A stretch of 64,000 nucleotides of DNA, from assembly GCF_014489515.1 (NCBI RefSeq), contig NZ_CP060782.1, positions 2,480,001 through 2,544,000 on the forward strand. Reading direction: 5' to 3'. Each line of letters begins with the position of its first letter. Position 1 is the stretch's first letter. Both the position numbers and the translations under genes were made by a program. This DNA is from Sphingomonas sediminicola. GTDB lineage: Bacteria; Pseudomonadota; Alphaproteobacteria; Sphingomonadales; Sphingomonadaceae. Under the pieces are notes generated by a model. It ran no database searches. It worked only from the letters and a program-made list of their open reading frames with translations, and was not told the DNA's origin. Of this stretch, positions 41,075 to 58,344 are shown one piece after another.

Positions 41075-41084
41075 GGATGCTTCG

Positions 41085-41109
41085 ATACAGGGTACCGCTA
41101 ACCCTGTAT
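41085..41109. promoter_or_regulatory. Palindrome in the divergent promoter of the CYTH-CHAD gene
   Basis: ATACAGGGT (41085-41093) and ACCCTGTAT (41101-41109) are perfect 9-bp arms 7 bp apart, between the Cys/His small gene and the CYTH-CHAD gene. A shared operator would couple both directions. Confidence 0.55.
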
Positions 41110-41144
41110 AGGAACGCCTCAAGCCGTTTGCGAATTGGGCGTCG

Positions 41145-42591
41145 ATGAAGCACGGAACCAACGGGGAGGTCGAGCTCAAGTTTGAACTAGACGGTCGCGC
41201 AGCCAAGAAGGCCCGTCGCCACCCTCTCCTGTCGAAAACGGATCATCGAACCAAGGTCCAAAGATCGATCTATTTCGATACGGACGACAGCGACGCGTAT
41301 CGGGCAGGCTATTCGCTCCGCGTGCGCGATGACGGCAATAGCTTCACACAGACGGTCAAGACGAACGGGGGATCTGCCGGTCTATTCGATCGGAGAGAGT
41401 GGGAAGCGCGGGTCGAGCAAATCGCTCCCGATCCAGACGCTCTGAGACAGACGCCTCTGGGCAAGATAAAGAAACTGACCCGCGACGCCAAGCCTGTGGT
41501 TTGGTCCGAGGTCGAACGCACGACCTGGCTGATCAATCGCGATGGCAGCATAGTCGAGGTAGCCTTGGACTCCGGGTCCATTCGCGCCGATGGCAAAGAG
41601 GCCCCTCTCCACGAGCTCGAGCTCGAATTGAGGCAAGGGAAGCAAGCTTCGCTATTCGCAATCGCTCAGGAGCTTGGCCGGGTGGTCCCGCTTCACGTTG
41701 GTGTTCTCAGCAAGGAAGAGCGGGGCCGGATGCTCGCAAGAGGCGCCTTTGGTCACGAACACAAGGCGAGAGCAATTGATCTCCGTAAGAAGATGGATGC
41801 CGGGCAGGCGTTTGCAACGATCGTTTATGAATGCATTCGGCATTTTCGCCTCAACGAAACGCTGATAATCGAGCAACGCGATCCGCACGCGCTTCACCAG
41901 GCACGCGTCGCAATAAGGCGCCTTCGGTCGGCGTTCACTTTCTTTAGGCCGGCGATTCAGCAGGGATCGCTCGAACCGCTCCGCGAGGAATTGCGCGGAT
42001 TCATTGCCCCTTCGGTGATGCTCGCAATCTCGACGTTTTCCTGGACACTCACGGGCCGAGTTAAGTGCGAACGCCCGCCGGAAGCTGACGGCGGCCCGCG
42101 ACAAGGCATATGACCAAGTTATCGGGACGCTGATGGCTCAAAGGTCTCGCGATATGCTCTTGGACCTTGTCGAATGGACCGTCTCGGCAAACTGGCGGAA
42201 GGATGCCGCGTCGGCTTCCATCGAAAAGTTCGCAACCCGTCGGCTCAACGCCGCCTGGAGAAAAGTCTTACGGAAGGGCAAAGGGCTAGGCGACCTAGGG
42301 CCGACGCGACTTCATCGGCTTCGGATAAGCCTCAAGAGGATGCGATATGCCGTGGACTTCTTTGCGCCGCTGTTTGCCAGGAAACAGGTTAGCAAGTTCG
42401 GTTCCTCGTTGGAGAAGATGCAGGATTGTCTCGGCCTGATCCACGACGAGATAGTCAGTCGGCGAATTGTTGCCTACTTTGGTCTTGGCGAGATGGGCAG
42501 AATGGAAATGACCACTCGATCGCGGCAGCTCAAGACGGTCGAGACACGCTTCAAACATCTGAAACGCCAACCGCTCTTCTGGAAAAGCTAA
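41145..42591 (+). CDS. CYTH-CHAD protein (polyphosphate-binding type), two frameshifts
   Basis: About 482 aa after correction. CYTH domain (~1-195): EVELKFEL carries the ExExK signature, a triphosphate tunnel fold. CHAD domain (~210-480): DPHALHQARVAIRRLRSAF and RLHRLRISLKRMRYAVDFF are the paired basic helices that bind polyphosphate. The frame breaks at the CCCC run 42007-42010 (expected IAPFGDARNLDVFLDTHG) and at TT 42061-42062 (expected SLSANARRKLTAARDKAYDQV). CHAD proteins associate with polyphosphate granules in studied bacteria. Divergent from NUDIX-parA. Confidence 0.88.
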
Positions 42592-42826
42592 TCCCCGGTC
42601 ACCGGAGCAGCACGATCGCAATCCCGTAGCCCTGACGATGTTCGAGCAAGTCACTGGCGCGGAGAAGAAAGCGGGGCCCGTTGCGGGGGCATGCTTTTGT
42701 CGAGCATTCCAGTAACGAACCCCGGCGTGCAGATACGCACTCTGCTGCGGTGGAAGACCTTACCCAAAGTTAGCGATAGCGTTGCCGAAGGCTGCGGGGA
42801 GGCTTCCCTCCCCCGTAATTCGCCGA
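42592..42826. other. Convergent gap with one hairpin
   Basis: No gene seen between the CYTH-CHAD and PhoX-like genes. GGGGAGG (42796-42802) and CCTCCCC (42807-42813) form a 7-bp stem with a 4-base loop, without a T run on either strand. It may be a weak bidirectional terminator. Confidence 0.4.
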
Positions 42827-44821
42827 TTAGAGCAGATGGTCGTAAGCGCCAAACACGTGGCCGAAGTTCGCGTTTAGTACGATAACCGAGTCATCGATCA
42901 AGTGCAGCGAATCCAGGTTGCCGGATACCCGAACAGCCGCTTTTGGCGAGGCGGATGCGCCCGCAAGGTCGTAGGAATAATAGGTTGCTCCATCGAGCTC
43001 GGTCGTTCCCGAATAACGAAGGGCGGTCGCCCCCGTGATCTCCACGCTGCTTGAGCCGAAGAGGCCGAGCGTCCCGCCGGCGCCAAGCTCGATGATCCCG
43101 TCGCCGTTCCCATCGGCAAGCTGCACCGTCGTCAGGAGGTGGTCCGGGTTGCCTAGGTCGACGATCCGGTCGTTCCCGGTTTCGGCTCGATTATCGAAGA
43201 CGAAATAATCGGGACCGTTTCCGCCCCTCAATTGGTCATTGCCGGTTCCGCCAATCAGCTCGTCCGAGCCATTATCGCCATTGAGCTGGTCGTTGCCTGC
43301 GTCACCCGAGAGATGGTCGCTGCCATTGCCGCCATAGACTAGGTCGTTCCCTGAACCGGCCCGTGCCCAATCGTCGCCGTTGTTGCCGCGGAGCGTCTCG
43401 TCAGCAGCGCTTCCGAACAGATTGTCGTTGTCGTTTCCACCGATCAGGAATGGATCGTCGACATACATGACAAGCAGCTGGCCCTGTTCGACGGTGGCCG
43501 GATTCCCCGTTGCAGCGTGAACCTGAGCGTCGAGTAGATAGGCTCGCGTGTCGCCGTCGCCGAGGAGCGACGTGACATCGACGACGCCGGAACTTTCTTC
43601 GTCCTGAGTGATGAAGTTCGCTCCACCGACAACGAACTGCGCCGGGTTGAAGCGGGCCAATTCGCTGACGGCACCGCTCGCGATGTCATATTCCCAGACC
43701 CGGGCGACATAGGCGTTATTGCCCGGATCCTCCTGGACGATGACTTTGCCGTCTGCGACCGTCAGATTGTCGAACATGTGGCCGCCGAGATCGTCGCTCT
43801 CGACTACGGCCTTGATTGTACCGCCGGTCGTCGGATTGGTGATATCGTTGAACGTCAGCTGATAGACACGCGAGACGCCGGAGAAGCTGTTCGTCGTCGT
43901 AAAGTAGGCGACGCTTGGATTGTCCGGATCCCAAGCGAAATCTTCCGGCCGCAGGAAAGCCGTGACGCCTTCCGCATTGCTCTCCGCCTCGATCTGGGCG
44001 CCCGTCATGTTGCTGACGTCGCCGCTGGCTCCGATTTCGTTGAGAGTGAAGCTGCCGCTTATCGGGCTGCCATTTGACTCGGCGGTCACCCCAGTGACCT
44101 TGATGCCGTAGAAATCGCCTCCCGAAAGGCCCGCTTTCTCGATCTCGGTGCCCGTCGACTGCTTCTGGCCGACGTAAATGTACACCTGGCCGTTGCCGTT
44201 CGGAGGACTGCTATCGTCACTTACGGCAATGATCGTCTTGTCTTGCGCGTAGGGGTTCGCGACGATGTTCTCGAACGCGAGATTGCCAAGAGAAGGAAGC
44301 TCGTAGATCGTTCCGGCGTTCGCACCGGTGACGATCGTTGCGGTCGCACGACCTTCGGGCGTGTTCTCCTCGCCGGTAAGATAGATTCGCACCTGAGTGC
44401 CCAGGCCATCCGCCGAATTGAAGAGTGCTGAAGTCGCCGGCAAGTCGCCCGAACAAAAGCGGTTGAAGGCGGTCGTCGCGTTCACATAGCTGTCGGTCGC
44501 GTCGTCCCATTTCATCACCGTCTTGATGAGATCGTCAGCGCCGACGACCTGTAGGGTATTCGCATCGATAATGAGCTTGTCGACGTAGGCGCCGGTCGAT
44601 CCGTGGTCGCGCACCAGTCCAGCGCTCGACCCCAGCTCGTGGTTGACGAGCACGGTGATCGTGCCGTCGCCATTGTCGAATGCGCCGATGCCATCCGGGA
44701 TTCCACCGAACACGCCGTCGCCCGGCAGAGCATCACCAGTCGTAGCGATCGAAACGATTCGCACGTTGGGCTCGGAAGCGAGCAGGAACGGATCAACGGT
44801 GGTGGAAGGACCGGTAGGCAT
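42827..44821 (-). CDS. PhoX-like (DUF839) phosphatase with C-terminal RTX repeats
   Basis: 664 aa. The N-terminal ~450 residues belong to the DUF839/PhoX beta-propeller group: [35 protein letters not shown] and [19 protein letters not shown]. PhoX enzymes are Ca/Fe-dependent alkaline phosphatases. Residues ~460-550 contain haemolysin-type Ca-binding nonapeptides ([20 protein letters not shown]). There is no Sec or Tat signal, consistent with type I secretion, but no T1SS genes are in the window. Phosphate scavenging outside the cell is the likely role. Confidence 0.85.
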
Positions 44822-44982
44822 CGCCTTACTCCTCTGCTTGGAAAGCAGATTAGCTACGGACGGGCGATTTCAGATCGCCGTTCGGACAGGTGACACGCGC
44901 GAGACCGAATGATGAAAGTTGGAGGCGAGGTGCAATTCGAAACTTCACTCATCGCCAAGAGAATCCGCTCCTGACGGCGCGC

Positions 44983-45378
44983 CTAACGCCCAAACTTGAA
45001 AGCAGTGAAATTTCCGAGAGCGCATATGCGTCCGAACGGAAGAAGAGTGACCTGCTCACCAGATCGGACAAGGTCGCCCTTACAGTAATAGGCAGCATTG
45101 GAATCCGGGATCACCGTCTGACCCGGCGAAAATCCGCAACTGTCCTCTAGGGTGCTAACCCAAATCACCTTGTCCTCCTCATAAAGAAGGACGTGGGGAT
45201 CCGAGTTCGAAATGCGGAAGACCCGACCCGATTCGACCCCGATGCAGCGTTGACTTTTCACCGGCAGTCGGCCTGCGAGCTCAGCCACTCTTTGAGGCGG
45301 AGGCGCTACTGGTTCCGGCGCCCCCTTCGCGCAAGAGCAAGCTAAAAGGGCGACCAGCACGACAGTCTTATTGCTCAT
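44983..45378 (-). CDS. Putative lipoprotein, DUF6491-like
   Basis: 131 aa. Short signal peptide with Cys at LLACSCAKG (lipobox-like). The central part RCIGVESGRVFRISNSDPHVLLYEEDKVIWVSTLEDSCGF and C-terminal GRICALGNFTAF have the Cys spacing I associate with DUF6491, from memory. Probably periplasmic; function unknown. Confidence 0.62.
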   Translation of the reverse strand: MSNKTVVLVALLACSCAKGAPEPVAPPPQRVAELAGRLPVKSQRCIGVESGRVFRISNSDPHVLLYEEDKVIWVSTLEDSCGFSPGQTVIPDSNAAYYCKGDLVRSGEQVTLLPFGRICALGNFTAFKFGR

Positions 45379-45677
45379 TAGAACAATCCGATTTCCCCAA
45401 TATTCAAATCATTTATCAGTCCGCAGAGGGTCTCGGGCCACCAATTCGCAATAGCAAACAAAGAAATGCGACCTCCGGCCCGAAGACGAACAAGATATGC
45501 AGAGCACCCTCAACGACCAAGGCCATGACCGAAACCGGCAGGCGAACCCATCGCCTCAAAATTTCGACCCAGTGCTCCAACCCCAGCTCCTCGCTTGCGG
45601 ACGCGCTGCGAGACTCTTCTCAGTCAAAACCAAGGCGCAGCCATGACCGATGGATGAAAGTTGCGAGACGAAAGGTA
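45379..45677. other. Gap of 299 bp with no gene seen
   Basis: Between the DUF6491-like start and the lipase stop (both minus strand). No convincing ORF, repeat or hairpin was found; it should contain the promoter of the DUF6491-like gene. Confidence 0.5.
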
Positions 45678-46397
45678 TCATTCGCGACTTTCCAGGAACT
45701 GTTCGACTTCCCTCACCACATCGCGCGCCGCTCTGGGAGAGATTGCAAATGCCATATGATGGCAATCAAGCTCGGCCTGCGCGTCGCGCTCATGATCAAG
45801 CCCTCGTGCTGCCCGGGGTGCGATCAGCCCATCGCGCCTGGACCAAATCGCGAGGTGTGGAACGGGCGGCTTATCAGTGATCCGCGGAATCGGTGGATCA
45901 TCGACCTTGTGATTGGCTACCCACTCGTACAGCCGCCAGACATTGTTCTGCTTTGGATGACCGGAGAAAGGGGTGCCGAGGGTTATGACCGCCCTTACGT
46001 TTGCAGCGTAATAACGGGCATACTCGCGAGCATAGAGACCCCCAAGACTCCAGCCCACAATGACTATTGGCCGATCGTGGCCAAGGCCATCGACCCTTGC
46101 TGCAAGAATCTCGATCGTGTCCGGCTTTGCGCCGAAGTTCCATCCTTGCTTCCAGCCATGAACCCTGAATCCCGCGCGAGCGAGTTCGCGTCGAAGGGAA
46201 AACGTGGTCTGATCACTACAGAGGAAGCCCGGGATCACCAGCACAGGCTGTCCGTGCAACGGGCCGAGCGGACCTCGTTTCCGGAATGTGCCAATCATCC
46301 GGCCGAAGTTCCAGAGGAGCTCGCCCCAATTTCCTTGAGATGGTGGGGCGTCGTCCCCCTCCCACGCCGGCTCATGACTTTGCGTCGATCTCCTCAC
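45678..46397 (-). CDS. Alpha/beta hydrolase, lipase-like
   Basis: 239 aa. LVIPGFLCSDQTTFSLRRELARAGF is the oxyanion region; the nucleophile Ser is in IVGWSLGGLYAREYAR; Asp is in IWSRRDGLIAPRAA and His in DCHHMAFAISPRAARDV. It resembles PGAP1/triacylglycerol-lipase-like hydrolases of proteobacteria. No signal peptide. Downstream of the glycosyltransferase, same strand, 38 bp apart. Confidence 0.85.
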   Translation of the reverse strand: MRRSTQSHEPAWEGDDAPPSQGNWGELLWNFGRMIGTFRKRGPLGPLHGQPVLVIPGFLCSDQTTFSLRRELARAGFRVHGWKQGWNFGAKPDTIEILAARVDGLGHDRPIVIVGWSLGGLYAREYARYYAANVRAVITLGTPFSGHPKQNNVWRLYEWVANHKVDDPPIPRITDKPPVPHLAIWSRRDGLIAPRAARGLDHERDAQAELDCHHMAFAISPRAARDVVREVEQFLESRE

Positions 46398-46435
46398 CGA
46401 GTCTCATCGGCTCCCCAGATTGGCAAAACGCTTAC

Positions 46436-47500
46436 CTAGGCCGCTTCGCGAACGGGAGTGCGTTGCGATGTTTCGCTTGCGAGGCCTGTTTCGAACAGGT
46501 CTGTGCAATGCTCCCAAGAGTAACGCCGACCTTCAGCGACCGCGGCGCCCCGGTCGGCGGTGAGAGCGAGATGGATTGCGGCGCCCAAATCTTCATCGAG
46601 CGCCCCAATTCGACGAGACCCGTCATGAACGCCTCGGCCGTCTTCTCCGATAATGTCGAGCGGCCCTGGAACGGGATATGCAGCGACCGGCACGCCGCAT
46701 GCCAATGCCTCGATATTGACCAATCCAAACGTATCCGTCCGGCTTGGGAACACAAATACGTCCGCCGCCGTATAGCAAGACGCCAACTCCGCGCCGTGCA
46801 TCGCGCCCATGAAGACAACTTTGGGGTAACGCCGCGACAGGCTTTCGAGCGCTGGCCCATCACCGACTACGACCTTCGTTCCGGGCACATTGCAGTCGAG
46901 AAAAGCCCCAATGTTCTTTTCTACTGATACCCGCCCGACGTTGAGCAGCAGCGGCCGAGGAAGCCTGAACAATGCAGGATGCGGACAGATGTGGGGGCTG
47001 AACTGGTCGAGGTCCACACCACGCGGCCAAAGATGTGTTTGCGCAATTCCGTGCCGGTTGAGTTCCCTCTCAAGCGTTGCTGTCGCCGAGAACGTGCGTT
47101 CCGCCGCGCCGTGAAAACGCCGCATCACCTTCCAGATCCATTCGGCCGGAATGCCTGTCCGGATCGAAACATAGTCGGGAAAGCGCGTATGGAATGCGGT
47201 CGTGAATTGACGATTGCGCTTCAAGCACCAGCTGCGTGTCGCCCAGCCGATCGGACCTTCGGTCGAGACATGAATACGGTCAGGTGCGATCCGGTCGAGC
47301 ATTGCGGAAACCTGCCGCCCGCAAGCGATCGCGAGGCGAATTTCGGAATAAGTCGGACACGGGATAGTCCGGAACATGCCCGGCTCGATGACGACCACCT
47401 CATGTCCGCGGCGCTGCAGATGCTCGACGGTCGTATCGAGCGACCGTACGACTCCATTTACCTGCGGACGCCAGGCGTCGGTAGCGATCGCGATCCTCAC
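46436..47500 (-). CDS. GT4-type glycosyltransferase
   Basis: 354 aa from the GTG at 47500 (VRIAIATDAWRPQVNGVVRSL, the GT4 N-terminus). The C-terminal Rossmann domain has LLNVGRVSVEKNIGAFLD, VVGDGP and VFVFPSRTDTFGLVNIEALACGVPVAAYPVPGPLDII, the nucleotide-sugar Glu motif. The acceptor is probably a lipid. The longer open frame from 47770 runs into the upstream gene and is not used. It forms a pair with the metallophosphoesterase, 7 bp apart, a recurrent combination in alphaproteobacteria. Confidence 0.9.
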   Translation of the reverse strand: MRIAIATDAWRPQVNGVVRSLDTTVEHLQRRGHEVVVIEPGMFRTIPCPTYSEIRLAIACGRQVSAMLDRIAPDRIHVSTEGPIGWATRSWCLKRNRQFTTAFHTRFPDYVSIRTGIPAEWIWKVMRRFHGAAERTFSATATLERELNRHGIAQTHLWPRGVDLDQFSPHICPHPALFRLPRPLLLNVGRVSVEKNIGAFLDCNVPGTKVVVGDGPALESLSRRYPKVVFMGAMHGAELASCYTAADVFVFPSRTDTFGLVNIEALACGVPVAAYPVPGPLDIIGEDGRGVHDGSRRIGALDEDLGAAIHLALTADRGAAVAEGRRYSWEHCTDLFETGLASETSQRTPVREAA

Positions 47501-47507
47501 GCTGCGG

Positions 47508-48398
47508 CTAGCTGATTCGAGGGATGGGGGCTGCCGCGCTAGCTTCGTTCCGTTTGCGCTCGGCCCAGTTGAGAATCTCCATCTGCCCGTCTGCGTGCTC
47601 AACCAGAGCGGTGCAGCTCTCCACCCAGTCCCCATCATTGTAATAAGTGACGTCGCCGATCTGACGGACCTCGGCAGTGTGAATGTGGCCGCAGACGACG
47701 CCGTTAGCGCCGCGTTCGAACGCCGCACGTGCGACAGCCTCCTCGAAGCTGGAAATGAACTGGACGGCATTCTTGACCTTCTTTTTCAGGAGGCCTGACA
47801 GCGACCAGTAAGGCTTGCCTATCATCCGGCGGCAGCGGTTGAGAGCAGCGTTCAGCTTGAGCAGCATTGAGTATGCGCTGTCGCCAAGGAACGCGAGCCA
47901 GCGCGCATAGAGGACGACGCCGTCAAATTCGTCGCCATGGACGATTAGCAGAGTCCGCCCATCTGCCGTGACGTGCACAGCTTCGGGCAGGATTTCGACG
48001 CCGCCAAAGTGAAGCCCGATATAGTCGCGGAAGACTTCATCGTGATTACCGGGAACATAGATGACCCGCGTTCCATGCTTCGCCATCTTCAACACGCAAC
48101 GGACGATATCGTTGTGGCGTGGCGGCCAGTACCAACCCTTTCGCAGCTGCCAGCCGTCGATGATGTCGCCGACGAGGTAAAGGGTTTCGCACTCGATCGC
48201 CTTGAGGAAGTCGAGCAGTATCTCCGCATTGCATCCAGGAGTCCCAAGATGCGTGTCGGAGATCCAGACGGTGCGGAATACTAGTCTTGGGCGATGAGGT
48301 TCGAAGTGAATGGGTTCCTCAATCCACTTAGGCGTCAGTCGCCCTGCAGCGGAAGCACTCCGACCTACGATCAGATCATTCGGCAGACTGTTGGACAC
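47508..48398 (-). CDS. Metallophosphoesterase, UDP-2,3-diacylglucosamine diphosphatase family
   Basis: 296 aa. Calcineurin-like motifs: WISDTHLG, YLVGDIIDGW, YVPGNHDEVFRDY, VHGDEFD and CGHIHTAEV, i.e. the five metal-binding blocks. LpxH-like family members cleave UDP-2,3-diacylglucosamine in lipid A synthesis, but this longer branch, paired with a glycosyltransferase, may act on another lipid. Transcribed with the downstream glycosyltransferase. Confidence 0.9.
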   Translation of the reverse strand: MSNSLPNDLIVGRSASAAGRLTPKWIEEPIHFEPHRPRLVFRTVWISDTHLGTPGCNAEILLDFLKAIECETLYLVGDIIDGWQLRKGWYWPPRHNDIVRCVLKMAKHGTRVIYVPGNHDEVFRDYIGLHFGGVEILPEAVHVTADGRTLLIVHGDEFDGVVLYARWLAFLGDSAYSMLLKLNAALNRCRRMIGKPYWSLSGLLKKKVKNAVQFISSFEEAVARAAFERGANGVVCGHIHTAEVRQIGDVTYYNDGDWVESCTALVEHADGQMEILNWAERKRNEASAAAPIPRIS

Positions 48399-48511
48399 GG
48401 CACCCTCCCGCCTCCTTGATATGGAACAGAGTAGGTCTGGGCCGTGTCAGCCGAGTTGCGTGACTGCTACAGTCTTATGGCGCCTTATCGCTTGCCCGTG
48501 ATTATTCCGCG

Positions 48512-48541
48512 AATGTCCGCTTTGGGTGGAAAGACGACATT
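48512..48541. repeat. 30-bp palindromic repeat, copy 6
   Basis: AATGTCCGC and GACGACATT arms around TTTGGGTGGAAA. Between divergent genes, 26 bp before the small membrane protein start. Confidence 0.7.
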
Positions 48542-48567
48542 AACGCCTCCCTGCGATTGAGACAAAA

Positions 48568-48738
48568 ATGTTCACGTTCGCCTTCATCGTTTTTCTTTTG
48601 GCATCCTTGCTGGGAGTATTCCTGGCGCACAGAAAGCGCCAAAGGCGTTGGCTCCTAATAACGCTACCCTTCTTAGTTGCGCTGGCTCTTTACGGGATAA
48701 TCGTGTTCGCTTGCTTCTTCGGCAGCAGCTGCCTGTAG
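48568..48738 (+). CDS. Very small two-helix membrane protein
   Basis: 56 aa, MFTFAFIVFLLASLLGVFLA for the first helix, then a basic turn HRKRQRRW and a second helix LPFLVALALYGIIVFACFF. The basic loop between two hydrophobic segments fits a hairpin with a cytosolic turn. Copy 7 of the palindromic repeat overlaps the stop. No strong ribosome site, so confidence is moderate. Confidence 0.45.
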   Translation: MFTFAFIVFLLASLLGVFLAHRKRQRRWLLITLPFLVALALYGIIVFACFFGSSCL

Positions 48739-48766
48739 TGTCCGCAATGGGTGGAAAGCGGACATT
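48737..48766. repeat. 30-bp palindromic repeat, copy 7
   Basis: AGTGTCCGC and GCGGACATT arms around AATGGGTGGAAA. Its first two bases belong to the TAG stop of the small membrane protein; the next gene is convergent. Confidence 0.75.
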
Positions 48767-48817
48767 GGCGCTTGCTCAAATCGAGTCGAACGAATTGGTT
48801 CGCCATCGCTACGGCAG

Positions 48818-49411
48818 TCACTTCTTCGATACCTTAACTTCAGCGTTTTGAACCGACCGTACGGCGTAGCCATTCGGTCCTGCGGCCGCTGTGGCTTTGT
48901 AGCTCTCAATCACTGCCTGACAGGCTGCATCGACCAGTTCCGGCCGCTCGTTTTCAGGATATTCCACGCAATCAGAAACGCGACCGTGTTCATCAACGGC
49001 GAACATCACCTTGGCATAGCCCGACGAGCGAGCCCCTTTGGGAATTTGGTCTACTTTAACCGTAACGTCAGGCGGCCTGAGGTTCGGAGGCGGATCGTCT
49101 CCGACCGCCCATGTCACTCCGGCTCGAAAGACACCCTGGACGGGTGATCCGTCGGTCCACTTCGCCGGTGCCAGCTTCGCACGCTTTTTGATGATGTTGC
49201 AAGACAGACTGTCGAGGTAACTGTCATTGCTGCTGATCTCGACGTCGCAAGCCTGGATTGAGCCGTCGGGCTTCACCGTGACTCGATAGGTCAGCCAGCG
49301 CGTGACCCCGTTGATCTGGTGGTAGGCCGGCATGTCATCGGGCGACCACCACTTGAGGAAATCGATGGGAACCGGAGCGCTCAATTGAGCGGCAAGTGCA
49401 ACCCAGATCAT
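48818..49411 (-). CDS. TonB C-terminal-like periplasmic protein
   Basis: 197 aa with a short hydrophobic N-terminus (MIWVALAAQL) that may be a signal. Two TonB-C-like units appear: WLTYRVTVKPDGSIQACDVEISSNDSYLDSLSC and GYAKVMFAVDEHGRVSDCVEYPENERPELVDAACQAVI. Stand-alone TonB-C proteins are frequent in sphingomonads; whether it contacts a receptor is unknown. Confidence 0.75.
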   Translation of the reverse strand: MIWVALAAQLSAPVPIDFLKWWSPDDMPAYHQINGVTRWLTYRVTVKPDGSIQACDVEISSNDSYLDSLSCNIIKKRAKLAPAKWTDGSPVQGVFRAGVTWAVGDDPPPNLRPPDVTVKVDQIPKGARSSGYAKVMFAVDEHGRVSDCVEYPENERPELVDAACQAVIESYKATAAAGPNGYAVRSVQNAEVKVSKK

Positions 49412-49468
49412 GCGTTCAAGTTTGCATTGGTCTCAGCCATTGTCGATATGCGTCAGCTTCTAGCTTCT

Positions 49469-49498
49469 AATGTCAGCTTTGGGTCGAAAGCGGACATT
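49469..49498. repeat. 30-bp palindromic repeat, copy 8
   Basis: AATGTCAGC and GCGGACATT arms around TTTGGGTCGAAA. Between divergent genes. Confidence 0.75.
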
Positions 49499-49530
49499 GC
49501 GCGTCGTCACCATTTCCATAAGGTTCGCTG

Positions 49531-49866
49531 ATGAACACGGCGACGCTCCGACAGCGCCTAATCGCTATTCTCAACGAAGAAGAGCGACCAAATGTTGATT
49601 GGCATGCCGTTGAGGACCTCTGCACGAAGCTCTCTGACGATCTCGAAAATCACCCCAATCAGGACTGCCCTCACATCGTCCATCACTTCCTGGCGGACGC
49701 GGACATAAGGGCGAAAGATGCCGAATATGGCCGAAAGCAGCGGGTTGAAATCAGGCGCTTTGCCGACACCGGCGAATGCGATGACAGCAAGCCGGTTTCT
49801 GGCCGTGGTTGCTTGGCCGTCGCTATCGTTTGCCTCGGTGCGCTACTATTCTGGTGGCTAAGCTAA
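49531..49866 (+). CDS. Hypothetical protein with C-terminal membrane anchor
   Basis: 111 aa. A soluble helical part (LRQRLIAILNEEERPNVDWHAVEDLCTKLSDDLEN) is followed by a single C-terminal helix, LAVAIVCLGALLFWWLS, typical of a tail anchor. No family recognised. Copy 9 of the palindromic repeat starts inside its TAA stop. Confidence 0.6.
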   Translation: MNTATLRQRLIAILNEEERPNVDWHAVEDLCTKLSDDLENHPNQDCPHIVHHFLADADIRAKDAEYGRKQRVEIRRFADTGECDDSKPVSGRGCLAVAIVCLGALLFWWLS

Positions 49867-49894
49867 TGTCCGCAATGGGTCGAAAGCAGACGCT
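49865..49894. repeat. 30-bp palindromic repeat, copy 9
   Basis: AATGTCCGC and GCAGACGCT arms around AATGGGTCGAAA, the right arm diverged. The first two bases are part of the preceding stop codon. Confidence 0.7.
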
Positions 49895-50478
49895 AGGATG
49901 ATCTGCTCGTTGTCCGGGAAGAGGCAGGGCTAGGGTCTCGCACGGCTCGACCCGACGTTGATCCGCTCACGTATCTCAAAGGCAAGCGCGCAGCTATCGC
50001 AGGCCCGGGCTCAAGCGGCGCAGTAACAAGGCGAGGCCAATCGGGTCCGAGGGCTCGATGAACCCGGCATTCTGCCGGACGGAGAGGATGGCTGCGGTTG
50101 AGCAGGGCTCGCCTGATGGAACGCGCGCCGCCGTAGGCGGCGTTCCTTCCTGATCGCAGAAGATCGTTGGACCCAAAAGATTATCCGAGATGATTTCTGA
50201 GGCAAACGGGATCTTTCTGGAAAAGAAGAACAGGACACCGAGGTTAATCAACCCAAATTGCTAGCGCAGGAACTTGTTGAGTCTGAAACAACGAATGTGT
50301 CGAATCATCAGGAAGATTTCCAGAACCTATTCATTAGAACATCCACAATACTTCCACAACAAACCGATACGCATTCATTCATTGTTAGAACATCGGAAAA
50401 CGGCATTTTGATACTTTGACAAATCGACAATTCGCATCGATTATCACGCGCGAGTTGTTGTGGCAGTTGGAGTAGCAG
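49895..50478. other. Gene-free stretch before the transposition genes
   Basis: No convincing gene. GGAACGC (50118-50124) and GCGTTCC (50140-50146) flank GCGCCGCCGTAGGCG, a strong hairpin. From about 50260 the composition becomes AT-rich, and TTAGAACATC occurs twice in direct orientation (50334-50343, 50385-50394), each after TTCATT. These could be transposase-binding sites near the left end of the Tn7-like element, but no matching inverted copy was found on the right, so the end is not located. Confidence 0.4.
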
Positions 50479-52707
50479 ATGAGTGCGCCGGTCCGACTGA
50501 AGGTTGGGGACTGCTTCGTCCTGGACGGCATGTCTTCGCCGCTATGCCGTGTTCTCAAGGTTACGAAGGCGGGCATCAGCGTGCTCAAGAGCGGCAAGGA
50601 TGAGGATGAGCCCGAGACCATCTCCTTCGGCGAGGTGTTGCAGGCTTATGGACGGCGGAGGTTCCGCATTGGCCCGTAAATCTCGACAGCCTCCAAGCTG
50701 ACAAGGTCGAGATGTTGCAGTCGGCCTTTACCGCTTGGCCGGCGCACGTCAGGAGAGAAGCGGCTCGGCGGTTGGCTTATGTGTCAGAAGTCGACCAGCG
50801 CATCCCTGTTTGCGGGACGATCAGGGCCGCCTGCCTCTCGGCACGCGGCGAGACCTTTTCCGCCCACTTCGAAGCTTGGGAGGCAGAAGAGAAGAACGCG
50901 GCGCTCATAATCCATAGCTCTAGGACCCACCGGAAGGGAGAGAGCTTCGACGGGCCAGCTGTCAAGCACCGGCGGGTGAAACAGCCTTCTGCCCGGACCA
51001 TAGAGAACTGGTACGGCGATTGGCGGGATGCCGGACGCGACATCTGCGCTCTCATTCCGAGCTATCACCGCAGAGGCTGCCGTAGCCCCATTACAAGGCC
51101 AAGGATCGGTCAGGCTTCGACACATATCATTATGCCAAGAAGGCGATCGACGAAGTCTACATGACGTTGTTGCGACCTCCATCCACGGCCGCTTGGGAGG
51201 TGTACAAGGACTGTGTCGAAGAAAGCAGCTTGCCCGCCACCGAGCTGATGTCTGATCGAGGCTTTCGCGATTACATCGACAGGCTCTACACGCCTGAAGA
51301 GCAGTGCATAGCACGCAAGGGCCGGAAGAAGGCCTTCCTCGAGCACGGCATTTTCATTCCACAGGACCTACCCGACATCCCGCTCGATGAGGTGGAGATC
51401 GATCACTGCTTGGTGGACGTCATATTGATACACAAGAACGGGCGGATTGCCGGTCGGCCGTGGATTACCGTCCTTCTCGATAGGGCAACGAGATGCGTTC
51501 TCGGCATTCACATCACCTTCCAGCCGCCGAGCTACCACTCCGTCCGCCTAGCGATTGCCCACTCGGCTTATCCAAAGGATCTCTCGACGTTCCCGTCCAT
51601 CAAACGAAAATGGGCGTGCTTCGGAGTGCCCAAATACTTGATCAGTGATCAGGGCAAGGAGTTCAAATGCGCGAGTTTCAAGGCGACCTGCGCTGCGCTA
51701 GACATCATTCCGGTCCCTCTTCCAGGTCGCAGCCCTTGGCTCAAAGGTGCTATTGAGCGGCTGTTCGGGTACATGGGTATAGCCGTCTTTGACCTGATGG
51801 ACGGCGCAACGAAGTTTAACGACGTCGAGGCCTACCGATCAGCAAAAAGTGCTCGTCTAGATAAGGACGAATTCACGAAGCGGCTCATCCGCTGGATTGT
51901 CGATCGCTATCATCATCGACCGCATCCCAAGCTCGAAGAGCGCTACGGAAGGGGTACGACGCCTGACATGGCGTGGCAGGTTCTGACCTCGCGCTACGGC
52001 ATTCGTTTGGCTCGTGACCCAGAGCAAGTGCATCTCATCACTGGCGAGATCTTCAATTGTCGGATCAGGTCGGATGGCATCCGGATCGGTCCGCAATGGT
52101 ACTTAGACAAAGATGTAATGGAGCGGCTTCGCAAGAGGCACGGACCTGGCAAGGTCTGGCGGGTTCATCGGGACGATACCGACTGGGGATATATCCGTCT
52201 TCTGGATGATACAGGCCGCGTGCCCCACTGGATCACGATACCTAATGCCAACCGCGAGGTCATGAGCGGCGTCTCCAGAGAGCAGTTCAAGATCATCCTC
52301 GACGAAGCGCGCCAGATGACCCGCGAAGGTGCGGAGATCCAGGTTGCCACCCTCGCTCGCGCCAAGAACCGCTTAGAGCGCGAGAGTGCGGCGCTTCAAA
52401 ACGGAGAATACAAGCGGAACAGCACTCATAAATATCTGCTCAAATGGACCAAGTACGGGACCTTGGGACGTTGGTGACCCCGGTCCCGGGGTTCGAGCAC
52501 CAAGTCATCGCCAACGACCAGGACCCCCTGTTGGAGGATGACTCGTTCGAGCTTGCAGCGGCTTGCGAACCGTCGCGCGTCGTCTCACCTGAGCCTAGAG
52601 CAAAGAACGCTGACCAAGTTGGCTTGCCACAAGTCGACGAGGAATCTTTGGATGAGCTGGCAGCCCTCATTGAGGAACGCATGAAGCTTTGGCGGGCTAA
52701 ATCATGA
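50479..52707 (+). CDS. tnsB: TnsB-like DDE transposase, three frameshifts
   Basis: About 743 aa when rejoined. An N-terminal domain (RLKVGDCFVLDGMSSPLCRVL) and HTH segments precede the RNase H-like core. The catalytic triad is Asp in VEIDHCLVD (codon at 51401), Asp in LISDQGKEF (51647) and Glu in LKGAIERLFGYM (51755); exactly 35 residues separate the last two, as in the family. A Mu-type C-terminal barrel follows. Frame breaks lie at CCC 50673-50675, CCCC 51086-51089 and GGG 52465-52467; one base each restores continuity. The tail (ESLDELAALIEERMKLWRA) would be the TnsC-contacting hook. Its stop overlaps tnsC. Confidence 0.88.
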
Positions 52708-53782
52708 TGGTCGGGTACGCACCTGGCGAACTCGAAGCCACCATCGCCAGCAGCCGTCTTGAGCAAAGTATCGTCCAGCACAAGTTGCTCTTCCATGGCT
52801 TGCAACGTCTACGCCTGCACCAGGCACGAAGTCTGAAGCTCTTCGAGGGCTCCTCACAGCCATCGCATCTGCTCATCGTCACAGGCCTCCCTGGGGCAGG
52901 GAAATCAACGTTGCTCAAGCAGCACAAGCGCGACTTTCCCGACGTTGAGACAATCGACGGTCGAATGATGCCCGTAGTGCTGGTCGAAATGCCTTTTCCC
53001 TGCACTCGCAAGGGTCTCGTCGAGGCCATACTCATGGCGATGGGCCATGAGCCCAGCGCCAACTGGAATACCGCCCGTATCGTAGACGAGATCGCTAATT
53101 TCGCGCGGCGGCACGATGTTCTCATGATCGCCATTGATGAGGCAGACCGCATCTTTGGCTCTGAAGCGCCAATATTGGCGAAGTTTCTCGTGTCGCTTCT
53201 GAACAGCCTCGACTGTCAGCTCGTGCTTGCCGGAGCTCCCGAGATTCAGCAGCTCCACAAAGGCTGGGGCCTGGAGAGACGGAAAGAGGTGGATCTGAAC
53301 CTCGATCCTTACCGCTTCAACACTAGAGAGGGCCAGACCGACTTCCGCTCAATGCTCGGGCTGTTCGAAGAGAACATGGGGTTGCCCGAACCATCGCTCA
53401 TAAACTCGCCGGATTTCAGCAAGCGACTCTACCTCGCGTCAGGGGGCAGGTTGGCCTCGTCAGCAAGCTCTTGGTCGAGGCTTTGAGGCGTGCTCACATG
53501 AGGCAGATGGCCAAGATCGATCTTGCACTCCTCGGCGAGGTTTACGTCGCCTTCAAGCGGGGCGACGAGGACGAGGAGATCGAATTCGATTGCGACGCAG
53601 AAACCATTGATGCGGCCGAACCTCTTCCGTTGAGTGACAATCCTTTTCTCTGCACCTCGGCTCGCTTGAAAATCCTGTGGGATGATCTTCACGCCGAAAG
53701 AGCGCGCAAGGCGAGGGATAATGCGAAGCCCGCGGTGAACAACGCCACGATAGGAGCCAAGGGAAAAGGCAAAAGCTCGTAG
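52704..53782 (+). CDS. tnsC: TnsC-like AAA+ ATPase, one frameshift
   Basis: About 359 aa after correction. TnsC forms ATP-dependent filaments on target DNA and links the target selector to TnsB. Walker A is VTGLPGAGKSTLL (~60-70), Walker B is VLMIAIDEADRIFG, sensor-1 is LVLAGAPEIQ. The frame breaks at the GGGGG run 53442-53446; one G gives YLASGGQVGLVSKLLVEALRRAHM. The C-terminal tail is Lys/Ala-rich. The start overlaps the tnsB end as ATGA. Confidence 0.9.
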
Positions 53783-55506
53783 GTGTCACGGGCTCTGACC
53801 CTCAGGCTCCGGCCAAGGCTAATGGAGCCGGCGCATGGCGCCTTCGTCAGGCTAGCGGGCAGGATGGGTTATCGGGCCCTCCGAGATCTTCGACGCCGCC
53901 TTCGATTTTCACTGCACGATCTCACGAAGGGAATGAACGTCGATGAATTTGCGTTTCGAGCAGGCCTAGATCCGGGCAGCTCATGAAGTGGTCTCCGGTA
54001 AGGCGACCGACAGGCCGTCTAGTCGAGCTCCGAGGCGAGCTGATCAGACTTGGGGATTGGTCCACTACGTTCCGACGGCGGTGTGAGCTTTGTCTGAACG
54101 GCGATTTCGAACGAGCGCGATCTCTTGGAATCGACGACCGGGCCTGGGCCTGTCATCGCTTCCACTGGGACGTTCAATCGATTTCCACTTGTCCTGAGCA
54201 TGGCTGCGCCCTGACGGACGATTGCTCCGCCTGCGGCCGGCGGCAGCGTTGGTCCGACCCGTCACTGCTTTATTGCGCGTGCGGCGCCCGGTTGACCTGC
54301 AGACTATTCGCGACCGCTCGCTCCGTTTGCAGCGACTATCTTGCCGGCCGGCTTGGAGTCAGCGACCGCTTAAGCTGCGAGCTACTCGATGCGCTCGACT
54401 ATCGGCATGCGGTTCGTGCTGTGAGGATTTTGAGCTTCGCCGCTTCCGATGCTGGCATCGAAGCTGTCGGAGATTTTTGCACGCCAGCGGACCGCGGATG
54501 GACGATCGCCAAAAATTGGGTCGATTCGATCCCGTTGCTTCTGGACAGTCTCTTAAAGCGCCGAGGTCGTAGAGGCTCGGGCCTCATAGAGGCTTACGGC
54601 AGACTTTATACCGAGACGGACGAGCAAAGCGCAGGGCCGATCTTCTCAGAACAGCTTCTTGCCGCGATTGAGCGGCACGCGGTCCAACACGGCATAATAG
54701 CCGAGAACGAGTGCCGACGTGGGCGACCGCCCCTAGGAACCGTGAGCGTCACCGGCCTGGCTAGAAGACTAGGACGATCATACGAGACGACAAGGTCGCT
54801 GCTGAGGGAGGCCAACGCCATTCCTCGGGGCTCCCGACGCGGTGTGGCATTCGCCATAGAGGCGTCGATTGCCGATTCACTGCCGCCGCGCCAGCCCGAG
54901 AGCGCGACCCAAGTCCTTGGCGTGGGCAAGCGGCAAGCTGCTCAACTCGTTGCCGAGTTTTGCCTGAAGAATAATCTGGGTCGCCCATGTCCCGAGATGG
55001 CTCGGAGGTGGGTAAGCAGCCTCCCAACATATCAAAGCCTTCCGTCTGAAACTGGTCTTCTATCGGACGTGTGCCGAAATCGCGCGGTGTCGCTCGCCAA
55101 TATTTGCCACGGCATCATTGCAGGTCGCGTCCGCTGCACGCGGCTGACTGCGACCGGCGGCTTGAGCGACTTCCGTGTCAGCGTTGAGGATTGCGTGAGC
55201 CTCAAACGGGCATCCGAGTGGACCATTAAGGACGTCAGTCAAAGGTTCGGCGCGCATCATCAAGCCCTACTTGAACTGGTGAAGCTGGGCGTGCTGGCGC
55301 GACACGGGCGAAAGCTGTGCCGAGAGAATGTAGAGGCATTTTTCGCAGAGCATCTAACTACAGCTCAGCTCGCCGAGAGGCTGCATATCGCAGCCAAGCA
55401 GGTGATAGGTTTCGCGGACCGACGAGGCGTTCACCCTGCGTTCGGCCCACCGAGCGTTCGCCAAACATTTTTCCGACTGCAGGATTGCCGTCAACTGAGT
55501 CTCTAG
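53783..55506 (+). CDS. TniQ/TnsD-like target selector 1, one frameshift
   Basis: About 574 aa. The GTG start directly follows the tnsC stop. The N-terminus LTLRLRPRLMEPAHGAFVRLAGRMGY is a TniQ domain; zinc-binding pairs follow: CELCLNG, CPEHGCAL, CSACGRRQ and CACGARL. The frame breaks at GGG 53974-53976; one G gives LDPGQLMKWSPVRR. The C-terminal half has at least two HTH-like segments (VTGLARRLGRSYETTRSLLREA, LTTAQLAERLHIAAKQVIG), as expected for TnsD-like DNA recognition. Confidence 0.85.
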
Positions 55507-55566
55507 GACGGGTGGCGAGCAGTCGATCGAGCGGGTCAACGACATCGTGATCAATGGGAGTGTCTT

Positions 55567-57441
55567 ATGGGAACCCCAAGGCCACATCTGCGGAAGAGAC
55601 CACCACATCTCTTACGAAAGGCCCCTCTCTACATACGGGAGCGAGCGGACGAGGCTCCCGCCTCCATCTGGTGCCGCCTAGCGAGGCGGGCCGGTTATCA
55701 AAATGTCACCGACTTTTTGAATACAGCTGGCGCGAAAGGCGACGTCATGAATTCGCCATGGCGGGAAGAGTCCCTGATCGCGCTCGCAAACGTTTCGGGT
55801 CAGGATTTGGAGACCTTAAAAGCTCGAACGCCGCTGTCCACTGATCGCGGAATCATCCTGAACTCCATCCTGCTGACAGACCACACGCGCTTTCCTCATC
55901 CCGGAGGAGCTTTCATCGATTCAGTCTGTCCCGAGTGTTTGGCCAACGATCTTGAGCACCTCGAGGGCCGGAGGACTGCAGGCCCTATCGTCGTTTCTGG
56001 TGGCCCTCTCCTTTATAGGCTGCCCCTCCATCGGCGGCCCTTGATTTCCCGATGCCCGGGCTGTGGAGACCAGCTCCAAACCCGCAGAGTGCGGGTCGAG
56101 TCTTGTGTCTGTGGGGCAAATTTGGCGCGGTGCTCCGAACTCCAAGCGGAAGTGGCAACGTTGGACGCGGCGTTTGTTGGCTACCTTATGGGTTCTCCGA
56201 GGCCGTCCTGGACTCTCCCATATGATCTTCAGACCCTCTCGGATCTTTGTCTGCGAGTTGGTCTCTTTTTCAGTGACGCTCCGTATCTGGATGTTGGACG
56301 ACACCTGCCGCCTCACGAGATCATGCGGATGTCATCTGAGGCATTCGACCTTCTGCTAGACGCTGACGGAGACCTTTGTCAGGTCATCGGCGAGAAAGCC
56401 GCGCGGAGAGCGGGTCACGGCTTTTCGCGCGTTTTTGGTCCGCTCGCGCACTTTCATGAACAGCGCATACGCAGACACCGCCGCGAGTTGCCGTTCATGT
56501 CTGCTCTTGAGAGGCTATGGAAGGAGATTGTCCTGAACCGCGCCCGTGGTGTGGCACGTCATAATCGTCAGCAGCCGTTGCGCTTTTCGCTAAGTGAAGT
56601 TGCGCTCTTAAACGAGGTTTCTGAGGCGGCGGTTGCCGAAATCGTCGCGGAGCTTACCGAGACAAAAGTCGAGGATTGGTCTCCGGCGGCGATGCTGGAT
56701 GCAAAGCTGATTCAATCAGTCAGGCTGAAGATCGGACATACTGGCACCATACATGAACTCGCCGCGATGTTGGGTGTCGGTTGGAAAGTCGTGCTCCAAC
56801 TGGCCGAGCGTGGAGTTTTTCAGCGCGTGAGCGGGAAGACGTCTACGAAGGCAAACCTGTTCGATCTGAGGGCGCCCCGCGCATTCGTGGCTGCGGCTGC
56901 AGAAGGGAAGCCGACCTTCTCAGAACAGCCGGATGACCTCGTTTCAATAATTACCCGTAGATCTCAGAGCATTGCTGAGATTGTTCGAGCCATTCAGGAC
57001 GGTCAGCTTGAATGTGAGGGCCGGCTGAAAGGAGTAGCTGGATTGGCGGGGCTGCTCGTTAGGGATCAGCAATTGGGTTGGGACTACCGGCAATATGAAG
57101 TCGAGTTCGGCCTACCAATTTACGACGGCGGCGCGAGGCTTATGATGGGGGACTGGGCCGTTAATCGATTAATAGAGGCCGGCTTCCTGGAAATTTATCC
57201 TTCGTCGCGTAATCGCACAAAATCTCACACTGTGACGCGCCGGTCGCTCGAAGCGTTCGCGGAGCGTTACGTCAGTAAGGCCGAGTTGGCGGCCAGATCG
57301 GATCTTGCGCAAGAGATCATCACAAAGCGCATGCGCGTGGCGAGAATTCCGTGCCTCGAAATGAACGGTTCTCGCTTCCACCGCGTTTTCGAGCGCGAGC
57401 GCGCCCTTCACGCTTTAGGACTGAACGAGGAACCCATTTAA
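55567..57441 (+). CDS. TniQ/TnsD-like target selector 2
   Basis: 624 aa, intact. It differs clearly from the first selector but has the same plan: RERADEAPASIWCRLARRAGY at the start, zinc motifs VCPECLAND, CPGCGDQL and CVCGANL, then a long C-terminal part with HTH-like units (SLSEVALLNEVSEAAVAEIV, HELAAMLGVGWKVVLQLAERGV, YVSKAELAARSDLAQEIITKRM). It is 60 bp after selector 1. Two selectors in one element usually mean two target modes, or a heteromeric selector. Confidence 0.83.
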   Translation: MGTPRPHLRKRPPHLLRKAPLYIRERADEAPASIWCRLARRAGYQNVTDFLNTAGAKGDVMNSPWREESLIALANVSGQDLETLKARTPLSTDRGIILNSILLTDHTRFPHPGGAFIDSVCPECLANDLEHLEGRRTAGPIVVSGGPLLYRLPLHRRPLISRCPGCGDQLQTRRVRVESCVCGANLARCSELQAEVATLDAAFVGYLMGSPRPSWTLPYDLQTLSDLCLRVGLFFSDAPYLDVGRHLPPHEIMRMSSEAFDLLLDADGDLCQVIGEKAARRAGHGFSRVFGPLAHFHEQRIRRHRRELPFMSALERLWKEIVLNRARGVARHNRQQPLRFSLSEVALLNEVSEAAVAEIVAELTETKVEDWSPAAMLDAKLIQSVRLKIGHTGTIHELAAMLGVGWKVVLQLAERGVFQRVSGKTSTKANLFDLRAPRAFVAAAAEGKPTFSEQPDDLVSIITRRSQSIAEIVRAIQDGQLECEGRLKGVAGLAGLLVRDQQLGWDYRQYEVEFGLPIYDGGARLMMGDWAVNRLIEAGFLEIYPSSRNRTKSHTVTRRSLEAFAERYVSKAELAARSDLAQEIITKRMRVARIPCLEMNGSRFHRVFERERALHALGLNEEPI

Positions 57442-57573
57442 TGCTTCCGAAAGAGATTAAGAGCTGCTTTATCGCTTCCGCGACGCGGGAGATTGCCTTC
57501 CGAATTCGCGGATCGGCTCCGCTTTTTCGGCTCCGTTGAGAACTGCCTTGGCGAGCCCGGTGTTGCCACAGTC
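57442..57573. other. Junction of the transposon with chromosomal genes
   Basis: No gene. ATGCTTCCGAAAGAGATTAA follows the second tniQ stop, then a second GCTTCCG block. Both match, on the minus strand, the CGGAAGC-containing repeats after gyrB. From about 57490 the sequence is GC-rich. The right end of the element should lie here, but no terminal inverted repeat was recognised. Confidence 0.35.
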
Positions 57574-58344
57574 GTGACCGTTGAATCGTCGATCACCGTC
57601 GCAAGCTACAATGTGCGCAAGGCCATCGGCACCGACCGGCGCCGAAACCCGCAGCGCGTGCTCGATGTGCTCCACGAAATGGATGCCGACATCGTCGCCC
57701 TGCAGGAAGCGGACAAGCGCTTCGGCGGACGCGGCGCGGCCGTGCCGCACGAGCTGATCGACGATCACGGGACGTACAGGCCGGTGTTCTTCGGAGTGAA
57801 GCACCGGCGCGTTCTGGACCGCATGCCGGGCGGAAAGCATGTCGACGCGCTGCTCAAGATCAACACGCGCAACATGGGCTGGCACGGCAACGCCATCCTC
57901 GTGAAGCAGCATGTCGGCGTGCTCGACTGTGCGGCGCTTGAGCTTCCGACATTCGAGCCGCGCGGGGCCGTGCTTGCTGAATTGTTGATCGGCGAGAGGC
58001 CCGTCCGGGTGATCGGCATGCATCTCGATCTCTCCGGAATGTGGCGACGGCGCCAGATCCGGGCGATCCTTGAGGCCGTGGCAAAGCGGCCTCAGAAAAT
58101 GCCCACCATCCTGATGGGCGACACCAACGAGTGGCGCGAAGCGGCGGGCTGCCTCAGGGACTTTGAACCGCATTTCCATATCGCTCCGACCGGGCCGAGC
58201 TTCCATTCGCGGCACCCGGTGGCGGCGCTCGATCGCATCATAGTCGACAAGGAATTGCGGATCGATGCGGCCGGCGTGCACATGAGTCCCTCGGCGCGGC
58301 GCGCGTCGGACCATCTGCCAATCTGGGCGCGGCTCTCGCCTTAG
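57574..58344 (+). CDS. Endonuclease/exonuclease/phosphatase family protein
   Basis: 256 aa from the GTG at 57574 (TVESSITVASYNVRKAIG, with the catalytic Asn region). EEP-fold motifs: DADIVALQEADKRFGG (Glu), MGWHGNAILVK, VIGMHLDLSG, LMGDTNEWRE (Asp/Asn) and ASDHLPIWARL (Asp-His). Substrate may be DNA, a lipid or a phosphoester. It is convergent with rpoN and shares a 4-nt overlap (TTAG) at the stops. A longer start at 57493 would run into the transposon junction. Confidence 0.88.
   Translation: MTVESSITVASYNVRKAIGTDRRRNPQRVLDVLHEMDADIVALQEADKRFGGRGAAVPHELIDDHGTYRPVFFGVKHRRVLDRMPGGKHVDALLKINTRNMGWHGNAILVKQHVGVLDCAALELPTFEPRGAVLAELLIGERPVRVIGMHLDLSGMWRRRQIRAILEAVAKRPQKMPTILMGDTNEWREAAGCLRDFEPHFHIAPTGPSFHSRHPVAALDRIIVDKELRIDAAGVHMSPSARRASDHLPIWARLSP

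Follow-up and report, generated by a model that had tools for sequence, protein, structure and literature searches.

A Tn7-like transposon with two TniQ genes and no detected TnsA lies directly behind gyrB in Sphingomonas sediminicola

Transposons of the Tn7 kind combine the DDE transposase TnsB and the AAA+ ATPase TnsC with a selector carrying a TniQ domain, and Tn7 itself, whose ends start with TGT, homes behind the 3' end of a conserved essential gene. Tn5053/Tn402 elements carry TniA/TniB/TniQ-type genes without TnsA, together with a site-specific recombinase, TniR, of the serine type. The type II topoisomerase gene parE, which is homologous to gyrB, is also known as a target. In Tn7, TnsD targets glmS, and a branch of the I-F3 CRISPR-associated transposons (CASTs) has a parE-targeting TnsD plus a second TniQ (PMC11406308). 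Tandem tniQ/tnsD loci, 1,048 of which were counted by Faure et al. (2023; PMC10293859), and the loss of TnsA with gain of a serine or tyrosine resolvase, for which Benler et al. (2021; PMC8649781) predicted a replicative pathway, are already published; homing to gyrB was not found in our literature search. Here we analyze a 64,000-nucleotide stretch of the Sphingomonas sediminicola genome (NZ_CP060782.1, positions 2,480,001 to 2,544,000; hereafter the window), in which a transposon with two TniQ genes lies just behind gyrB. We consider it probable that this is a 31.5-kb Tn7-like transposon whose homing just downstream of the gyrB stop codon would be guided by proteins, with TniQ1 as the homing selector, and whose transposition without TnsA would be replicative.

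Like Tn7, the element lies behind the 3' end of a conserved essential gene, encodes TnsB, TnsC and TniQ-domain selectors, and is flanked by a 5-bp duplication. It differs from Tn7 in that no TnsA was found, the gene is gyrB and not glmS, the ends begin with TCT, and the tns genes are separated from the target-side end by the cargo, an arrangement foreign to the gene order of Tn7. A TnsB gene with an adjacent TnsC gene, a TniQ/TnsD-type selector, repeat-bearing ends with a 5-bp duplication and reuse of one attachment site make it Tn7-like; a TnsA endonuclease and 5'-TGT ends, which would mark Tn7 proper, were not found. As in Tn5053/Tn402, TniA/TniB/TniQ-type genes occur without TnsA and with a site-specific recombinase, but there are two TniQs where those elements have one, the recombinase is of the tyrosine type, the ends start with TCT and the site is chromosomal gyrB. 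The locus shares with the TnsA-less resolvase branches (PMC8649781) the lack of tnsA and a tyrosine recombinase inside the element, to which it adds two TniQs and gyrB homing. The two TniQs and a type II topoisomerase gene as target recall the I-F3 CASTs (PMC11406308), the nearest relatives of its TnsB, TniQ1 and TniQ2 among PDB entries; in the window, however, neither a cas match among the proteins scanned, nor a repeated 23-mer, nor TnsA was found. Two TniQ genes side by side, taken as unusual in an earlier reading of the bare sequence (hereafter the original prediction), recur in the tandem loci of PMC10293859. No report of gyrB as a Tn7-like attachment site was found in the titles and abstract openings of the papers that searches of the open-licence literature brought up; the words gyrB and gyrase are absent from the main text of Faure et al. 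(2023), gyrB is absent from that of Benler et al. (2021), and PMC12452197 uses gyrB for phylogeny. Since this search covered open-licence papers, we word the novelty of gyrB homing with caution.

The boundaries and the target site of the element are close to certain, the attachment site being the 3' end of gyrB. The EEP-family nuclease gene comes immediately after gyrB in 6 of the 7 loci obtained from the same genus (L063-L068). Because this uninterrupted site joins the two genes, the 31.5 kb that separate them in the window must hold an insertion of about 31.4 kb, measured at 31,458 bp. In the seventh locus (L069, genome G009), gyrB is not beside the EEP gene, no tns gene was found, and the place holds polysaccharide-type genes as judged by open reading frame (ORF) reading. 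The inverted ends (TCTCAACGGA) give a left junction of GTCTAAGGAACTGC followed by TCTCAACGGAACCG and a right junction of CGGCTCCGTTGAGA followed by ACTGCC, with a perfect 5-bp target-site duplication, ACTGC. Both begin with 5'-TCT, and the window contains exactly two copies of their terminal 10-mer, one per end and mutually inverted; with one mismatch allowed there are five matches, a number equal to chance. When up to two mismatches are allowed, the 15-mer CGGAAGCRWTAAAGC, which was derived from the ends, is matched five times, always within the ends and inwardly inverted (0.44 expected), and the CGGAAGC-type repeats there are candidate binding sites of TnsB. The gene gyrB is essential and found in nearly all bacteria, which makes its 3' end a safe landing site almost everywhere, much as glmS is for Tn7.

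The original prediction had described the segment 50479-57441 as a minimal element without cargo, attached beside the EEP nuclease and rpoN genes. The ends and the duplication refute such a 7-kb element: tniQ2 does end 100 bp from the true right end, but neither end motif occurs near 50.2 kb, and the uninterrupted site of the relatives joins gyrB, the conserved neighbor, to the EEP gene, which is only the right flank. It follows from the missing motifs that the tns genes occupy the gyrB-distal end of the transposon and that both TniQ genes lie inside it; a TniQ outside the ends had been named as fatal to the prediction. Some 24 kb of cargo separate the left end from tnsB. AT-rich repeats at 50280-50470, also tried as a transposon end, were rejected when no inverted partner was found.

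Segment 50479-57441 encodes, by ORF listing and Pfam, TnsB (rve core), TnsC (AAA_22/TniB) and two TniQ-domain proteins (Table 1). The catalytic residues predicted for TnsB hold: D, D and E align with those of intact relatives, with 35 residues between the last two. So do both Walker motifs of TnsC (GLPGAGKST and MIAIDEAD), which matches AAA_22 and TniB. In sequence-profile comparisons with PDB entries, TnsB is nearest to I-F3 CAST TnsB (1.7e-66), ahead of V-K (2.2e-37) and Tn7 (1.5e-25); PADLOC labels its core V-K at 4e-27, although the PDB profile places it far nearer the I-F3 protein. Both TniQs are likewise nearest to the I-F3 CAST TniQs, with TnsD weaker. PF06527 is matched by both genes, one above and the other below the Pfam cut-off, and these are the only matches at E <=0.001 in the 2.76-Mb genome. 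The paired zinc cysteines predicted for both TniQs are borne out by alignable Cys/His positions, whereas the helix-turn-helix (HTH) character claimed for the C-terminal parts is only suggestive in TniQ2. AlphaFold2 models of the window TniQ2 (pLDDT 71, pTM 0.43) and of the TniQ1 of Glacieibacterium frigidum (pLDDT 72.8, pTM 0.47) are of middling confidence; Foldseek recovered the TniQ core in both (E 8.4e-4 and 9.8e-6, respectively), and for TniQ2 it returned BldC, Xis and MerR-like winged helices, some with high probability, all at E >0.6, which is why the HTH reading stays at that strength.

Table 1. Features of the gyrB-associated transposon and its flanks (window coordinates)
Feature	Position	Strand	Remarks
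Whole transposon	26084..57541		31,458 bp; ends and duplication; uninterrupted site in relatives
gyrB	23582..26075	+	host target gene outside element; three frames in assembly; stop codon 26073-26075
ACTGC duplication, left side	26079..26083
ACTGC duplication, right copy	57542..57546
Left end	26084..26355	+	terminal TCTCAACGGAACCG; three CGGAAGC-type repeats at 26111, 26132, 26339; candidate TnsB sites
Cargo	26435..30316		LysR regulator (-), short-chain dehydrogenase (+), alpha/beta hydrolase (+), further ORF
Tyrosine recombinase	30369..31481	-	Phage_integrase and SAM-like N-domain; candidate cointegrate resolvase
Dyad	31534..31551		CGATAA-N6-TTATCG by recombinase start; candidate crossover site
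87-bp stretch	31889..31975		outside listed genes; shares 88.5% identity with a stretch upstream of the recombinase in G. frigidum
Cargo	32303..49866		HTH regulator, ParA-like ATPase, NUDIX, CYTH/CHAD, RTX-repeat protein, alpha/beta hydrolase, glycosyltransferase, metallophosphoesterase, TonB-C protein, further ORFs
tnsB	50479..52704	+	DDE transposase; four frame pieces in assembly: 50479-50679, 50661-51089, 51086-52474, 52444-52704
tnsC	52704..53782	+	AAA+ ATPase; two frame pieces: 52704-53447, 53444-53779
tniQ1	53795..55506	+	two frame pieces: 53795-53977, 53974-55503; candidate gyrB selector; clade seen in two-TniQ elements
tniQ2	55567..57441	+	single ORF, 624 aa; TniQ core and helical C-terminal half, possible winged helices
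Right end	57435..57541	-	two CGGAAGC-type repeats at 57435, 57466; terminal TCCGTTGAGA
EEP-family nuclease gene	57577..58344	+	right flank outside element

Searches with TniQ2 returned few relatives. For the window's protein, tblastn confirmed no relative in GTDB genome contigs, nor in the plasmid collection; among 296 genomes of the order, it found besides itself only G. frigidum (locus L081, genome G190) and, weakly, G166; the G. frigidum TniQ2 matched 6 of 385 genomes of the class, the window's included. The wider set of relatives required a search with a TnsB alignment. By profile reading, tnsA, tnsB, tnsC and two tniQ genes are present in L087 (G739; tnsA 2.5 kb upstream), L098 (G738), L099 (G736), L102 (G737) and L103 (G741; short tniQ pieces), and L086 (G740) is cut by a contig end within the first tniQ. 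G. frigidum carries tnsB-tnsC-tniQ1-tniQ2 at gyrB in an element of 34.8 kb, without tnsA and with all four ORFs intact. The neighborhood sought by the original prediction exists, and its TnsA-less module with two divergent selectors has an independent, intact counterpart. In the TnsB tree, for which 51 of 70 hits qualified (length 430 aa or more, E <1e-100), the window is closest to L099 and L102 (100/100) and G. frigidum groups with L086 and L087 (100/100), the relatives being TnsA-positive in both cases.

Element ends can be read right after the gyrB stop codon in six elements (the window, L081, L086, L087, L099 and L102), all of which begin with 5'-TCT 5-8 bp past the stop. Exact 5-bp duplications flank four of them (ACTGC in the window, GTGGA in L081, AGCGC in L099, GCCAT in L087), L102 matches at 4 of 5 bases, and L086 offers only the gyrB-side end, its right end lying off the contig. 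In L098 no correspondence was found between the right end of the element and what follows gyrB. The G. frigidum ends were located by the 5'-TCT rule after a search with its right-hand repeats had failed, and one trial position, which gave no duplication, was discarded. Repeat-bearing sequence also stands directly behind gyrB in L105 (Anaerolineae, two TniQs) and in G139.

Some of these observations weigh against our preferred reading, as do certain features of the TniQ2 branch, the recombinase and the gene breaks described below. The gyrB-side end and the tns genes are on separate contigs in L099 and L087. The element of G139, from another branch and with a single TniQ, also lies behind gyrB, so that homing to this gene does not need the two-TniQ set. 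G166 perhaps has the same kind of sequence behind gyrB, where its contig ends. As a separate observation, the Magnetospirillum genome G745 has a second, short match to the gyrB C-terminus (G745:C2:1334466-1334801) in a 144-aa open frame; the same genome has a TnsA-less tns locus, and the extra piece is possibly a relic of homing.

The two TniQs belong to different clades. In a tree of 37 of 48 hits (at least 350 aa, E <1e-50), one clade (7 rows, 96/88) unites the TniQs that come first in two-TniQ elements; those that come second fall into another, together with the single TniQ of Sphingobium-type elements and of L108-L110 (21 rows, 95/90). The window TniQ2 is a long branch in it, with less support (92/85). 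TniQ2-only elements occur in Sphingobium and Sphingomonas (L026, L027, L089, L090, L095, L097 and L101). These TnsABC-TniQ elements, referred to here as Sphingobium-type, are close and well-sampled relatives that differ from the window's in their size of about 8.5 kb, the presence of TnsA, a single TniQ2-type TniQ and their target; their ends are homologous (TCTGAGCGGAACCGATTA). Eleven loci were examined, two of which begin at the element end; 7 of the 9 with a readable left flank are in the same PAPS-reductase-like gene, and 6 of those 7 insertions are at one place, within one codon. AGA and the same 5 bases recur downstream in 5 of the 9 (L026, L027, L090, L094 with two candidates, and L101); no duplication was found in the other four, in L097 because its locus ends too early. 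One such element resides on plasmid pTB1 of Sphingobium yanoikuyae.

This distribution fits, and does not prove, an assignment in which TniQ1 would be the gyrB selector and TniQ2 the selector of another target. The two target modes of the original prediction gain indirect support from it: the clades are separate, elements with TniQ1 are at gyrB wherever the site could be read, and those with TniQ2 only are mostly elsewhere. As the latter chose another gene and have matching duplications in 5 of 9 cases, TniQ2 can act alone, which also speaks against both TniQs forming one heteromeric gyrB selector. That alternative, which we regard as unlikely, draws on the two tniQ genes being same-strand neighbors in the window, L081, L087, L098, L099 and L102, five of these six being shown at gyrB (L098 is the exception), but it must also accommodate G139, behind gyrB with one TniQ. 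The clade offers a natural experiment, TniQ1 plus TniQ2 at gyrB versus TniQ2 only elsewhere, in which it can be tested which selector reads which target, and the window's element is useful for asking how such transposons choose their landing sites. Two further features of the Sphingobium-type elements were seen. L027 (14710-17157) and L026 (16444-18891) have within their ends a fifth gene, a TOTE-type primase/helicase (AEP-TOTE and ResIII; the L027 copy was scanned). The contigs of L088 and L091 (8,505 and 8,508 bp) start with the element end and are roughly as long as a whole element, as expected for collapsed multi-copy elements.

In the mechanism that we favor, TniQ1 would recognize the 3' end of gyrB and recruit TnsC and TnsB, and TniQ2 would serve a second class of targets. 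Without TnsA, TnsB would nick the 3' strands only, so that transposition would be replicative and give a cointegrate, to be resolved by the element's tyrosine recombinase at the adjacent dyad or by host recombination. PF08722 detected no TnsA in the whole genome of the window, although this model likewise fails to find the genuine TnsA of G087 when that genome is searched. A 10-row TnsA profile, searched in 14 genomes, gave just one 40-aa match (E 0.18) in the window's genome; of the other 13 genomes, 10 were positive (E <=1e-14), and the profile contained rows from 7 of these 10 but none from G740, G741 and G029. It detected none in G. frigidum, G744 (L093) and G745 (L100), and L093 and L100 have no tnsA nearby. 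A search of the window for a tnsA remnant with the G087 TnsA found none (best E 0.65). Since the closest TnsB relatives of both the window and G. frigidum are TnsA-positive, TnsA was, most simply, lost separately in the two lineages.

A tyrosine recombinase gene inside the ends contradicts the absence of a resolvase in the original prediction, which had named a missed tnsA or resolvase as grounds for refutation; of the two, only a candidate resolvase, this recombinase, was found. No serine resolvase TniR was detected among the 20 window protein pieces given to Pfam, which represent part of the ORFs. No exact repeated 23-mer, as a CRISPR array would contain, is present inside the element, and no cas match was obtained among the ORFs scanned with Pfam/PADLOC, no dedicated cas or Cas12k search having been made. 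The closest homologue of the recombinase, at 60% identity, is inside the G. frigidum element; matches at <=1e-10 occur in 12 of 80 chosen genomes, these two included, and the next best is 42% identical. The dyad lies 52 bp before the recombinase start codon in the window and 59 bp before it in G. frigidum. Its pattern, defined after comparing these two, occurs once in the window and in none of 100 shuffles, and it is absent from 150 of 154 loci, the four bearing loci being copies of the window and G. frigidum places.

There is nearly an even chance that the recombinase is cargo with no link to transposition, or a leftover of some other integrative element, and that host recombination handles cointegrates. 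The gene is in a higher-GC part of the window, 19 kb from tnsB, and could be plain cargo; weaker relatives exist in 10 other genomes of the 80. Moreover, TnsA-less G745 has no recombinase match and TnsA-less G744 only pieces at 30-32%, which weakens a strict link between TnsA loss and the recombinase, and TnsA-positive L099 and L098 have homologues at 41-42% somewhere in their genomes. Against a mere passenger stands the fact that the closest pair by far is found in two TnsA-less gyrB elements, both of which enclose the gene between their ends and have the dyad next to it. The TnsA-positive gyrB elements L102 and L087 have no recombinase homologue in their genomes, and the homologues of G740 are on contigs other than the element's. 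A broader scenario, which we find doubtful, would have a gyrB-homing lineage in which two ancient TniQ paralogues split the targets, TniQ1 taking the chromosomal gyrB 3' end and TniQ2 the PAPS-reductase-like gene, which is found on a plasmid as well as in other places. Two branches of this lineage would have lost TnsA independently, had the same kind of recombinase with its own dif-like dyad and passed from cut-and-paste to replicate-and-resolve. Sisters with TnsA, and without it but with the recombinase, make such a switch testable in close relatives.

The region upstream of the recombinase has conserved features of its own. The 87-bp stretch matches no Rfam family at gathering score, the longer stretch holding it has an unremarkable folding z-score (-1.8), and stretches of this type also occur on sphingomonad plasmids. 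Conservation extends over 31811-31975 (L081 3216-3381), and the window copy has counterparts in 7 of 72,556 plasmid records, four from Sphingomonas, two from Polymorphobacter and one from Qipengyuania. A neighbor of the conserved stretch is weakly like Rfam c4-a1b1 (phage C4 antisense RNA targets); the L081 match (E 1.6e-5) and that of the window (E 0.016) both fall short of the gathering score.

In the assembly the module genes are not all intact: tnsB, tnsC and tniQ1 are frame-broken, and tniQ2 alone is one ORF. The element could accordingly be a fossil at gyrB, its three broken genes true pseudogenes and its tnsA deleted. Five breaks in 7 kb (about 0.7/kb) exceed the 0.2-0.28/kb of the flanking conserved genes (four breaks over 14.1 kb in the comparison with L063, three over 13.5 kb with L065 and two over 10.0 kb with L068), by which measure the copy could be dead, and the tnsA present in the sisters L099 and L102 was not found. 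We nevertheless hold a dead element to be somewhat unlikely. Two of the flanking breaks fall in gyrB in each comparison, and gyrB is single-copy in this genome (a second match is just 44% over 71 residues); with so essential a gene broken, and a genome that is just 90.6% complete although assembled into one contig, we find sequencing indels more likely than decay. The tnsB pieces are collinear with residues 106-158, 160-299, 299-751 and 749-823 of L099, the first and last with weak homology (E 0.004 and 0.014), those of tnsC with L099 as well, and those of tniQ1 with the G. frigidum homologue; alignments are thus collinear over all five breaks, two with weak matches, and the breaks are of the small-indel kind. 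The ends and duplication are perfect, and G. frigidum has its intact TnsA-less copy. Programmed frameshifting was rejected as a poor fit to five breaks in three genes plus those of gyrB. The two breaks of gyrB are a warning for any broken gene of this genome, and the cargo CYTH/CHAD gene (41145-42591) also seems frame-broken, a 322-aa ORF being followed by one of 152 aa.

Two kinds of repeats complete the description of the window. The AT-rich stretch before tnsB contains repeated TTAGAACATC and inverted CCACAACAA and is perhaps a tns promoter or operator. REP-like short dispersed repeats (TGTCCGC..GGGTCGAAAGC type) flank small genes at 48738-48771, 49468-49502 and 49862-49897, and short matches to them, most at 83-100% identity, are numerous in the four genomes of the genus that were searched.

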